The notes beneath the pieces were generated by a model that worked only from the letters and a program-made list of their open reading frames with translations, made no database searches and was not told the DNA's origin. Position numbers and translations under genes: made by a program. Of a stretch of DNA of 64,000 bases, positions 18,256-33,493 are shown piece after piece. Within the stretch, counting starts at the first letter, position 1; every line of letters begins with the position of its first letter. The DNA comes from Desulfurispirillum indicum S5 (GTDB taxonomy: Bacteria > Chrysiogenota > Chrysiogenetes > Chrysiogenales > Chrysiogenaceae), in the NCBI RefSeq assembly GCF_000177635.2, contig NC_014836.1:1624001-1688000 (forward strand), written 5' to 3'.

Positions 18256-18699
18256 ATGAAAAAACTGCTGCTTCTGTTTATCTTCATACACACTCTGGTT
18301 CTTACGGCAATCGCCGACAATTATGTTGCCGTTACCGGCGATCGGGTCAATCTGCGCGCGCAGCCCTCCACCAATGCCGAAGTCCTCTGGACCCTGGGCA
18401 AGTACTTCCCCTTGAAAGTGCTGAAGCAGCAGGGTAACTGGTATCAGGTGGAAGACTTCGAGGGTGACAAAGGGTGGATTCACAACAGTGTTGCCAACAA
18501 GGAAAACCGTGGCGTCATCGTCATCCGCAATAATGTAAATGTGCGCAGCTCCAACTCCACCAATAGCGATATTCTCTTCCGCACCAGCTATGGCGTTGCC
18601 TTCCGCATCATTGGTCAGCGCAGTAACTGGTATCAGGTTGAACACCCCGATGGTCACCAGGGATGGATTCGCGGTGATCTGCTGTGGGGCGCCAAGTAA
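18256..18699 (+). CDS. Exported protein with two bacterial SH3 domains
   Basis: The 147-residue protein has a signal peptide (about 1-20, ending TAIA) and two SH3b domains (about 23-80 and 87-145). Each shows the family pattern, VNLRAQPSTNAEVLW ... WYQVEDFEGDKGWIH and VNVRSSNSTNSDILF ... WYQVEHPDGHQGWIRGDL. SH3b domains of this kind bind cell-wall peptides. The protein has no catalytic domain, so a structural or targeting role in the periplasm is likely. A terminator follows about 120 bases on. Confidence 0.88.
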   Translation: MKKLLLLFIFIHTLVLTAIADNYVAVTGDRVNLRAQPSTNAEVLWTLGKYFPLKVLKQQGNWYQVEDFEGDKGWIHNSVANKENRGVIVIRNNVNVRSSNSTNSDILFRTSYGVAFRIIGQRSNWYQVEHPDGHQGWIRGDLLWGAK

Positions 18700-18949: not shown

Positions 18950-19617
18950 AACTCAACTTTCGCACCTTGTCGCGCTGGGCTAAGGTGTTGCTATAATGAG
19001 ATTTACCATGAGGAAACAGTGTATATTTTGCGTACTTGACTCATCTGGCATCACTTTTCGTTTCCGGATATTGCCCTTTTTGACCGCCCAAAAAGGGCAC
19101 AAAAACGCGCCCCCCGAACGCCCGTTTTTCCGGCTTATTGCTTGCCTGTTCTGGAGATCCGGCAGACACTGCGTCCCTGCAGTGCTGCCGGACCACTCAC
19201 TTCCTGTGAGTGTCCCGTTCGGGTCTTGCCAGCCAGGCGTCGCACTCACCGGACGGGCTCAGGGGGGAACGGCCTGCTCCTGTTTCTCCCCCGTGTGCTG
19301 GCCCAGCCAGGACGCGAAGACTGGAACGCTATGGACCCGCAGGGTTGACGCCACGAGGGCGGCAACCGCAAACCAAAAACCACGGAGGGCGGTTGTTTGC
19401 GGTCCCCAGTTCCAGGCAAGCGGGCGGCTGATAAGGACAGCACTGGGGGTCGCTTCCCAGCCACTTTTTGCGGGTAAAAAGTGGCAAAAGAAACTCGTGT
19501 ATATGGTGAGGATAATGTCAAGCAACGCAGTCTGTGCAGAACCACTTCCTCCATTCCAGCATGGCATCAGGGTCGGTGCCGATAACCTGCAGTTTCGGAG
19601 GTGAAACCTCGAGTTTG
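18950..19617 (+). repeat. Structured dispersed element, copy A
   Basis: First of three copies. The core (19073-19485) opens with a 10-bp hairpin (GCCCTTTTTG, loop ACCGCC) and closes with another (GCCACTTTTT at 19460-19469, loop GCGGGT, AAAAAGTGGC at 19476-19485). Internal helices lie at 19158-19192, 19194-19212, 19344-19366 and 19366-19402, and CTGGAAC (19321-19327) can pair with GTTCCAG (19409-19415). Left and right flanks (18950-19072 and 19486-19617) are also shared with copy B. In the left flank TATAAT with an extended TG (18989-18997) could be a promoter. No reading frame is conserved among copies. It lies between the ends of the converging SH3b and flgE genes. Confidence 0.85.
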
Positions 19618-29654: not shown

Positions 29655-30325
29655 ACTCAAGTTTCGCATCTTGTCGTCTTAGGCTAAGGCACTATTATTC
29701 TGACATTTATCGCGCGGAAACTGTATTGATTCTGAATGCTTGACTTATCTGGTCTTCCACTTTTCGCCTCTGGATATTGTCCTTTTTGACCGCGCAAAAA
29801 GGACACAAAACGCGCCCCCCGAACGCCCGTTTTTCCGGCTCGCCTGCTCGCCTGTTCTGGAGATCCGACAGACACTGCCTCCCTGCAGTGCTGCCGGACC
29901 ACTCACCTCCTGTGAGTGTCCCTTCGGGTCTTGCCAGCCAGGCTTCACACTCACCGGACGGGCTCAGGGGGGAACGGCCTGCTTCTGTCTCTCCCCCGTG
30001 TGCTAGCCCAGCCAGGACGCGCCGACTGGAACGCTATGGACCCGCAGGGTTGACGCCACGAGGGCGGCAACCGCAAACCAAAAGCCACGGAGGGCGGTTG
30101 TTTGCGGTCCCCAGTTCCAGGCAAGCGGGCGGCTGAAAAGGACAGCACTGGGGGCCGCTTTTGCGCCACTTTGGGCGGGTCCAAAGTGGCAAAGAAACTC
30201 ATAGACAAGGCGAGGGCAATGTCAAGAAACGCAGTCTGTGCAGAACCATTTTGGCCATCCCAGTATGGTATCCAGGTCGGCGCCGACAACCTGCCGCTTC
30301 GGGGTGCGAAACTTCAGTTTGAAGT
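29655..30325 (+). repeat. Structured dispersed element, copy B
   Basis: Second copy, with core 29779-30190. Its end hairpins differ from copy A by paired changes: GTCCTTTTTG/CAAAAAGGAC (29779-29788, 29795-29804) and GCCACTTTGG/CCAAAGTGGC (30165-30174, 30181-30190), the loop GCGGGT being unchanged. Internal helices at 29864-29898, 29900-29918 and 30049-30071 match those of A. The 29655-29778 and 30191-30325 flanks are similar to those of copy A. It lies in the divergent region between sppA (minus) and thiC (plus). A short deletion (CCCTTCGGG instead of CCCGTTCGGG) shifts any reading frame relative to copy A. Confidence 0.85.
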
Positions 30326-30548: not shown

Positions 30549-30560
30549 TGCAATACATTT

Positions 30561-30640
30561 TCCGTTGGGGGCGCTTCCGTAAGGAGGCTGAGAAGAACCC
30601 CATGAACCTGATCCAGGTAATGCTGGCGAAGGGAAACGGG
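30561..30640 (+). promoter_or_regulatory. TPP riboswitch (THI element) aptamer
   Basis: The conserved THI-box cores are present: GGGG..GCTGAGA (to 30592), ACCC (30597-30600), and GAACCTGATCCAGGTAATG then CTGGCGAAGGGA. Stem P1 is CCGTT (30562-30566) with AACGG (30635-30639). Bound thiamine pyrophosphate stabilises P1. It sits between the promoter and thiC. Confidence 0.95.
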
Positions 30641-30659
30641 TGCCGTGTTCACGACATAC

Positions 30660-30713: not shown

Positions 30714-32027
30714 ATGAATGTAACCCAGATGCACCGGGCCCGCAAAGGCGAAATCACCGAGGCCATGCAGACGGTAGCGGCCAGCGAACAGCTCGAACCG
30801 GAGTTCGTGCGCAGCGAAGTGGCCCGTGGCCGCATGGTCATCACCGCCAACATTAACCACAAGAACCTTGTCCCCATGGGCATCGGCATCAACGCCCGCT
30901 GTAAGGTCAACGCCAACATCGGCAACAGCAAGCTCTCCAGCGGCTGCCGTGAAGAGCTGGAAAAGCTGCACATGGCCATCAGGTATGGCGCCGACACGGT
31001 CATGGACCTTTCCACAGGCGAGGATATCAACCGCATCCGTACCGCCATCATTGAAAACTCTCCCGTGCCCATCGGCACCGTACCCATGTACCAGGCGGTG
31101 GAGGAAGTGGAGGATCCCCTTGATCTGAGTGCCCGCAAAATCCTCGATGTCATAGAAGAGCAGGCCCGCCAGGGCGTGGACTACATGACTGTGCACTGCG
31201 GCATTCTGCGCCGCCACATTCCCATGGCCATTGGCCGCACCACAGGCATTGTCAGCCGTGGTGGCAGCCTGATGGCTCAGTGGATGCAGAAGCACCAGAA
31301 GGAAAACCCCATCTTCGACCACTACGATGAGCTGCTGGAAATCTGCAAAGCCTACGACGTCACCCTCTCCCTGGGAGACAGCCTGCGCCCCGGCTGCCTG
31401 GCCGACGCCTCCGACGAAGCCCAGCTCAGCGAGCTGGAAGTCCTGGGTCAATTATGCAAACGAGCCTGGGAGCAGGATGTTCAGGTAATGATCGAAGGCC
31501 CCGGCCATGTACCCATCGACCAGATCGAGTTCAACGTGCGTAAGCAACAGGAGCTGTGCCACGAAGCCCCCTTCTATGTCCTCGGCCCCCTGGTCACTGA
31601 CATAGCCCCCGGCTACGACCACATCACCGGCGCCATCGGTGGCGCCCTGGCAGCCTACTACGGCGTGTCCATGCTCTGCTACGTCACCCCCAAGGAACAC
31701 CTGGGCCTGCCCAACGCTGAAGACGTGCGCAACGGCATCATCGCATTCAAGATTGCCGCTCACAGCGCCAACATCGCCCGCAAGTTTCCCGGCGTCCGCG
31801 ATCGCGACGACGAGATGAGCCGCGCCCGCTTCGCCTTCGACTGGCAGAAGCAGTTCGCCCTCTCCCTCGACCCCGAACGCGCCCGTCAGTACCGCATGGA
31901 ATCCATGCCCGAAGAACTCAGGAACGACTGCAGCACCGAACACTGCTCCATGTGCGGACCCAAGTTCTGCTCCATGAATATCAGCCACCAGATCATGAAC
32001 GCCGACGCTGCCAATGCAGCCAAGTAA
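30714..32027 (+). CDS. thiC: Phosphomethylpyrimidine synthase ThiC
   Basis: Radical SAM enzyme turning aminoimidazole ribotide into HMP phosphate for thiamine. The 437-residue protein has the iron-sulfur motif near its end, CSMCGPKFC (CxxCxxxxC), and typical ThiC blocks [22 protein letters not shown] and [13 protein letters not shown]. The start at 30714 has AAAGGAGC upstream; a longer frame at 30645 would pass through the terminator. It is controlled by the TPP riboswitch. Confidence 0.96.
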
Positions 32028-32038
32028 AGGAGGAAACC

Positions 32039-32236
32039 ATGGCACAAGTCAACGGACGCACCGTACCCATCCCCGAAAGTATCTCCATTGAACAGCTGAA
32101 AGAACAGCTGGGCGTCAACGCCTGCCGCATGGCCGTGGAAGTCAACGGCGAGCTGATCGACCAGAACCGCTTCGGGGAAGCGATCATTAACGACCAGTGT
32201 ACGGTGGAGATTATTACCCTGGCTGGAGGCGGTTGA
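32039..32236 (+). CDS. thiS: Sulfur carrier protein ThiS
   Basis: A 65-residue ubiquitin-like sulfur carrier for the thiazole part of thiamine. The C terminus ITLAGGG provides the di-glycine that becomes a thiocarboxylate; an extra glycine is present. AGGAGG lies eight bases before the ATG at 32039, and the gene begins 11 bases after thiC. The gene is followed, four bases past its stop, by repeat copy C. The activating ThiF is not in the window. Confidence 0.92.
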   Translation: MAQVNGRTVPIPESISIEQLKEQLGVNACRMAVEVNGELIDQNRFGEAIINDQCTVEIITLAGGG

Positions 32237-32240
32237 TACT

Positions 32241-32656
32241 GTTCCTTTTTGACCGGCCAAAAAGGAACCAAAAAGCCGCCCCCCGAACGCCCGTTTTTCC
32301 AGCTCGTTAGCTTGCCTGTCCTGGAGATCAGGCAGAAGCTGCATCCCTGCAGCTCTCCCGGACCACCTGCCTCCTGCAGGCGTCCCGTTCGGGTCTTGCC
32401 AACCAGGCTTCGCACTCACCGGACAGGCTCAGGGGGGGGGAGAGAGTGAGATGCTTTGCTCCCCGTGTGCTTGCTTCTGCCAGGCAGCACCGACTGGAAC
32501 GCTGGCAGCCCGCAGGGTCGCCGCCACGAAGGCGGCGACCGCAAACACAGTCAGGGATGACGGTTGTTTGCGGCCCCAGTTCCAGACAAGCTGACGGCAG
32601 AAATCTGCAAGCACTGAGGGCCGCTTTTGCGCACCTTTTGGCGGGTCAAAAGGTGC
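32241..32656 (+). repeat. Structured dispersed element, copy C (core only), inside the thi operon
   Basis: Third copy, without the outer flanks shared by A and B. It starts four bases after thiS and ends 60 bases before thiG. Left hairpin GTTCCTTTTTG/CAAAAAGGAAC (32241-32251, 32258-32268), right hairpin GCACCTTTTG/CAAAAGGTGC (32631-32640, 32647-32656), loop GCGGGT conserved. Stem 32517-32525 with 32531-32539 is a full 9-bp helix here. A 23-base block at 32278-32300 is identical to that of A (19109-19131) and B (29814-29836). It must be transcribed through for thiG and thiH to be made, unless it carries a promoter. Confidence 0.85.
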
Positions 32657-32716
32657 AACTGACTCAATTAACCATTTAACCCGATCGCAGCATGGTGACT
32701 GCATAAGGAAACTCAT

Positions 32717-33493
32717 ATGTCAACAGACCAACTGATCATAGCCGACCGTTCATTCACTTCCCGCCTGCTCATGGGCACCGGGAAATTCGCCAACAATCAG
32801 CTTATGGCCGAGGCTATCCGCGCTTCCGAGACGGAAGTGGTGACGGTGGCCCTGCGCCGGGTTGATCTGGATGCGCCCCAGGACGATATGCTGGCGGCCA
32901 TTGACACGGAGCGCATTCTGCTGCTGCCCAATACGGCGGGGGCACGGGATGCGGAGGAGGCGGTGCGTCTGGCCCGCTACGCCCGCATGGCGGGTTGCCC
33001 TTCCTGGGTGAAGCTGGAGGTGACGCCCGATCCGCGCTACCTGTTGCCTGACCCGCTGGAGACCTACAAGGCGGCCCAGATCCTCATCAAGGAGGGCTTT
33101 ACGGTGCTGCCCTATATCAACGCCGATCCGGTGCTGTGCAAGCACCTGGAGGAGATCGGCTGCGCCACGGTCATGCCCCTGGGCAGCCCCATTGGCAGCA
33201 ATAAGGGGATCAAGACCCGCGAAAACCTGCGTATAATCATAGAGCAATCCCATGTGCCGGTGGTGGTGGATGCGGGGCTGGGCGCTCCTTCCCACGCGGC
33301 TGAGGCCATGGAGATGGGGGCTGACGCGGTGCTGGTGAATACAGCCATTGCCATTGCCAGCGATCCAGCTGCCATGGCCCGCGCCTTTGCCAAGGCCGTT
33401 CAGGCGGGTCGTGAGGGGTATCTGGCGGGACTTGGCCCCCAATCCAGTTTGGCTTCAGCTTCCAGCCCCCTCAAGGGCCTGATGTGGGAGTGA
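32717..33493 (+). CDS. thiG: Thiazole synthase ThiG
   Basis: Forms the thiazole phosphate ring from deoxyxylulose phosphate, dehydroglycine and ThiS thiocarboxylate. The 258-residue TIM-barrel protein has the Schiff-base Lys in [10 protein letters not shown], phosphate-binding [13 protein letters not shown] and [12 protein letters not shown] ribosome binding site AAGGAA precedes the ATG. It is separated from thiS by 480 bases of repeat copy C. Confidence 0.95.

Follow-up and report, generated by a model that had tools for sequence, protein, structure and literature searches.

The thi operon of Desulfurispirillum indicum S5, whose genome is a single contig of 2,928,377 bp, was analyzed in a window of 64,000 nucleotides, and the positions below refer to this whole stretch unless a genome copy is named. 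The operon lies on the forward strand with the order thiC-thiS-[copy C]-thiG-thiH behind a TPP riboswitch (30557..30651; Rfam RF00059, 76.7 bits). The open reading frame of thiC (30714..32027) has a start and gene order homologous in the two family relatives G001 and G002. It is followed by the open reading frames of thiS (32039..32236), which is intact with the C-terminus GGG, and thiG (32717..33493), which is intact, 258 aa long, and single-copy in the genome. The gap between the latter two is 480 bp and holds copy C (32241..32656, unstranded), a core-only element in the form of an inverted pair of structured units, running from stem base to stem base of its two end hairpins. The thiS stop TGA (32234-32236) is followed by TACT and then by copy C, and from the final stem base at 32656, the thiG ATG at 32717 is reached after 60 nt. 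The placement given in the sequence-only reading, four bases past the thiS stop and 60 before thiG, was exact to the base. The 60-nt stretch (32657..32716, forward strand), which carries the thiG Shine-Dalgarno AAGGAAA, is absent in G001 and G002. The thiG leader AAGGAAACTCATA (32700-32716) equals 12/13 bases of the right-flank start AAAGAAACTCATA of the long-type copies described below, possibly by chance.

The left end hairpin of copy C (32241..32268, unstranded) has the form GTTCCTTTTTG-ACCGGC-CAAAAAGGAAC, with stem bases that covary between copies, and its loop bases CGGC (32254-32257) are able to pair with GCCG at 32275..32278. The right end hairpin (32631..32656, unstranded), GCACCTTTTG-GCGGGT-CAAAAGGTGC, mirrors the left end, and an upstream CCGC pairs with the loop GCGG. 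Thus, each end has a hairpin loop able to pair with a tetranucleotide just inside. The left loop pairing is CGGC/GCCG in copy C, CGCG/CGCG in the long type, and CGCA/TGCG in copy 2183194, while the right one is CCGC/GCGG or TCGC/GCGA (Fisher p 1e-5, with related copies counted as independent). The outer stem variants were likewise compensatory, namely, GTTCC/GGAAC, GCTCC/GGAGC, ACAC/GTGT, and GATAC/GTATC.

Approximately 65 element copies were found in the genome by searches with copies C and B, a terminal-repeat pattern search, and fetched flanks; a BLAST search of the genome gave 52 matching pieces from 40 scored candidates. The copies are of two kinds, the majority being of a long type and the rest core-only. 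The cores of the D. indicum elements measure 412-416 bp, and the core-only copies, which include copy C and those at 1037117, 297839, 39207, and 1171340, terminate at identical hairpin stem bases in unrelated flanks. Accordingly, the description of copy C in the sequence-only reading as a bounded core without the flanks of copies A and B holds, as the other core-only copies share its boundaries. For core C and the G001 unit described below, no plasmid matches were obtained, and in phages the matches were limited to hairpin-like stretches of 38-44 nt in two unannotated records.

In the window, the long type is represented by copy A (18952..19612, 661 bp) and copy B (29656..30317, 662 bp, core 29780-30192), both on the forward strand, in which a core lies inside an element with terminal inverted repeats (TIRs) and no target-site duplication (TSD) is visible. 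The long type, of which there are approximately 40-50 copies without coding capacity, is approximately 660 bp in size, or 690-1070 bp where at least one 128-bp repeat is nested. Its TIRs are approximately 15 bp long, with CTSAAGTTTCGCAYC at both ends, and an exact 6-bp TSD was found in 19 of the 43 family members (shuffled mean, 0.57). No autonomous partner was found among the TIR-flanked candidates inspected and the lone TIR matches. The nested repeat of approximately 128 bp (G1/G2; consensus CAGGCTGCTCAAAGAGGCCCATCTGCTGCG...GCGTTGCCTG) sits at two fixed sites within many long-type cores, for example, L088 1349-1478, L080 1296-1425, and L077, and also occurs elsewhere in the genome. The long-type left flank contains a promoter-like TTGTCG-16-TATTAT (29671-29698), and the cores of the A/B type may be transcribed from this site of the element's own. 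In another part of the window, two 55-bp direct repeats (18427-18670) encode tandem SH3-like segments (NWYQVE...KGWI).

The thi site was compared with those of the two family relatives. G001 had 3 nt between thiS and thiG, G002 had 1 nt, and the element was absent from this site in both. The sequence-only reading had suggested an insertion at this site, to be recognized by an empty site in relatives and a TSD. The empty site was found in both genomes, so that the contrary outcome, in which all relatives carry the same 480 bases or no empty site exists, did not occur; no TSD was found beside the end hairpins. On inspection of the flanks, copy C had neither TIR nor TSD, and the element stopped at its own hairpins. 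Since the site is empty in both nearest relatives, copy C very probably jumped into the thi operon, the act of insertion being read from the empty sites alone in the two relatives compared. If copy C were instead ancestral in the family, as the core-family remnants in G002 and the single units in G001 might suggest by indicating that the family is old, two independent exact deletions restoring the 1- and 3-nt gaps would be required, which makes a clean loss in both relatives highly improbable.

With insertion as the preferred reading, the translation signals of thiG can be considered. In G001 and G002, the thiG Shine-Dalgarno is apparently located within the G-rich 3' end of thiS (GGAGGCGG in G002). 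The D. indicum counterpart in the thiS end is 480 nt from thiG, and AAGGAAA precedes the thiG start instead. Copy C would have entered the thiS-thiG gap once the lineage had diverged from the two sequenced relatives, and the insertion would have parted thiG from the Shine-Dalgarno in the thiS end, leaving thiG with one of its own.

The starting point for the internal design of the core was the cysN-sulfite reductase site, home of the sister copy 1037117 in D. indicum. The cysN-sulfite/nitrite reductase interval holds this sister copy in D. indicum (G000:C1:1037117-1037528; L002) versus a solo end hairpin of approximately 30 bp in G001 (G001:C4:32044-32071; L167, L175), a pattern that would fit either partial loss of an ancient insertion common to both or repeated targeting of the site. 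Elsewhere in G001, a family of approximately 205 bp starts with this hairpin, and its alignment to the D. indicum core covers the left half (E 1.6e-7). Across the genera, RNAalifold gave 35 pairs for the 107-nt shared module, 16 of them with double compensatory changes, and a covariance model of this module is termed R1.

In copy C, the left 107-nt multibranched module (32307..32413, forward strand) was matched by R1 with 108.8 bits (E 5.9e-24), and the right module (32487..32594, reverse strand), which has the same fold inverted and a strongly diverged sequence, with 53.8 bits (E 8.8e-11). A variable apex or spacer lies between the inverted units (32433..32462, unstranded, approximate bounds from the copy alignment), and unit-only copies stop nearby. 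R1 picked out all left halves reading along the element's orientation, and in approximately 25 cores it matched the right half on the opposite strand (E 9e-11 to 2e-5); the opposite-strand match had an E of 2.6e-6 in copy A and 1e-5 in copy B. In the 98 kb of loci searched, all R1 matches at E <= 0.05 were cores or core parts, and among 384 genomes the matches were restricted to D. indicum and G001. The stem sequences of the left and right modules are almost wholly different, while the pairs and the loops CAUCCCUG, UUCNUG, and CCC-UGC-GGG are kept. As a model built from the left module also recognizes the right half when that half is read from the other strand, the core consists of two diverged copies of a single structured unit in head-to-head arrangement.

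Moreover, the copies were compared for the order in which the core and the TIR element arose. The long-type cores form a clade (support 100/100) that excludes copy C and its nearest sister, 1037117; G002 contains core remnants only, with no trace of TIR flanks, and the related single units of G001 also lack TIR flanks. Since the tree and the TIR-free cores and units of the relatives agree in this order, the core-only form is probably the ancestral state, from which a TIR element would have taken up a core to give the A/B type. A MITE-like TIR element apparently captured one core and then spread. Independent insertion of cores into pre-existing empty TIR elements was rejected, as no core-free TIR pair was found. 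It could also be supposed that copy C is the remnant of an A/B-type element stripped of its flanks, since its core is clearly homologous to those of A and B, which bear additional flanks, and some truncated long copies exist. However, C and 1037117 are placed outside the long-type clade, the stem bases at which the other core-only copies end are the very ones of C, and neither relative shows TIR flanks around its units or cores; such flank loss is therefore very unlikely. In the case of core-only copy 1171340, the sequence was nested among long-type sequences, which is only suggestive of a core having moved back out of the long type. In G002, a decayed core was also seen directly upstream of hisF, after a trpB-like gene (G002:C9; L096 1540-1700).

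Whether the structure acts at the RNA or DNA level bears on the effect of copy C in the operon. The RNA fold of the core had z = -6 on both strands, and neither a sigma-70-like promoter nor a forward terminator was predicted inside copy C. Since both are missing from the prediction, read-through from the riboswitch promoter probably includes the fold in the operon mRNA, and transcription would probably continue into thiG. The strong fold, the conserved loops with compensatory changes, and the site between two cistrons without a forward terminator could point to a functional RNA in the thi mRNA, kept as useful for stabilizing or processing the transcript and setting the ThiS:ThiG ratio; mRNA-stabilizing roles have been discussed for BIMEs (PMC3733652). 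However, RNA-level selection is disfavored by the wobble changes, because G-U changes should exceed A-C changes on the sense strand, and the left unit showed the reverse (1 vs 8; 3 vs 3 in the right unit; small counts). Wobble pairs thus gave no sign of RNA-level selection on one strand, the direction being, if anything, opposite. The 55 copies with assigned gene context occurred in every kind of it (20 tandem-same, 12 tandem-opposite, 12 divergent, and 11 convergent), and no significant preference for gene orientation was found among them. Copy C, with its broken R1 pairs, is itself among the more decayed copies, and the relatives manage without the element, its position in orthologous thi operons not being conserved in G001 and G002. 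A functional RNA of this kind was thus judged unlikely. By analogy with REP/IS200-type systems, we prefer the reading that the structure is kept for DNA-level mobility over that of a regulatory RNA, and copy C would have a mild, probably passive effect on thiG expression. A peptide encoded in the core or a separate thiG promoter was considered extremely improbable: the open reading frames of 66-95 aa that cross the core in several frames overlap on both strands, as expected of GC-rich palindromic DNA, indels separate the copies, and no sigma-70-like promoter was found inside C.

The element was compared with known systems. REPINs and BIMEs are paired inverted REP sequences mobilized by RAYT/TnpA-REP (PMC3116915, PMC3733652, PMC8266576). 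Similar to these, the element is a dispersed, intergenic, non-coding repeat that occurs as single palindromic units and as inverted pairs (here approximately 65 copies, with R1 in both halves of approximately 25 cores), its structure is kept by compensatory changes, and its core has no TSD. Unlike the REP units of 20-40 nt, the units here are approximately 200 nt with a multibranched domain, and no consistent GTAG/CGTC tag was seen at the unit foot on inspection of the D. indicum and G001 copies. The Y1_Tnp domain (PF01797) had 0 matches in the D. indicum genome and one match each in G001 and G002, with no element hairpins adjoining; a RAYT/IS200 mobilizer was rejected on the D. indicum result. 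Because the tag and the Y1 transposase are missing and the unit is five- to tenfold larger, the element is not a REPIN but a REPIN/BIME-like dispersed repeat, and A and B are MITEs that captured it.

Bacterial MITEs are non-autonomous DDE-type elements (PMC2229807). Only the A/B type resembles them, with TIRs of approximately 15 bp, 6-bp TSDs, 40-50 copies, and no coding capacity, and it differs in having an older structured repeat as its interior and no autonomous partner among the inspected candidates. IS200/IS605-type ends have subterminal hairpins with guide-to-site pairing. The end hairpins here also have a short pairing sequence nearby at each end, but the ends are mirror images, the loop pairs with the inside tetranucleotide, and the genome has no Y1 transposase. 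As in a curated RNA family, the secondary structure is conserved; a search of Rfam 15 gave nothing above gathering, and the best sub-threshold matches were at chance level.

The best explanation overall, which we regard as likely, is that copy C, an old core-only member of a mobile repeat family, was inserted between thiS and thiG. This repeat would be a dispersed, non-coding, non-autonomous element of the Chrysiogenes family, with a unit of approximately 200 nt composed of an end hairpin, a loop-pairing tetranucleotide just inside, and the 107-nt multibranched module. Two diverged units would have been joined head to head in D. indicum into an inverted pair, like REPs in REPINs. A TIR element would then have taken up one such pair and multiplied it, with 6-bp target duplications, giving A, B, and approximately 45-50 others. 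It is plausible, falling just short of probable, that the core moved through recognition of its single-strand hairpins by an enzyme lost or yet to be found. One genome would thereby hold three layers of repeat evolution, namely, an old structured unit, the pairing of two such units in inverted orientation, and the capture and spread of the pair by a TIR element. The thi operon offers a natural experiment on how translational coupling responds to a 416-nt fold between two cistrons.

The compensatory changes between genera open the fold to testing and suggest very large REPIN-like units outside known RAYT systems. A broader proposal, which is tentative and rather doubtful, is a family-specific class of mobile repeats with a multibranched, loop-locked fold of approximately 200 nt, present as single units in G001 and as inverted pairs in D. 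indicum, recognized as structured single-stranded DNA by a yet-unnamed enzyme and capturable by conventional TIR transposons. The end-hairpin module, that is, the hairpin plus AAAAAGCCGC, is multicopy beyond the family. A Bacteroidetes MAG and two Gemmiger genomes each contain multiple copies of the exact 22-nt hairpin CCTTTTTGACCGGCCAAAAAGG, and AAAAAGCCGC follows it in most cases. R1 did not recognize the remainder of these elements, and the common hairpin may reflect either shared descent or a shared recognition rule. The Gemmiger copies of the end-hairpin element also contain a nested repeat similar to that of the long-type cores.
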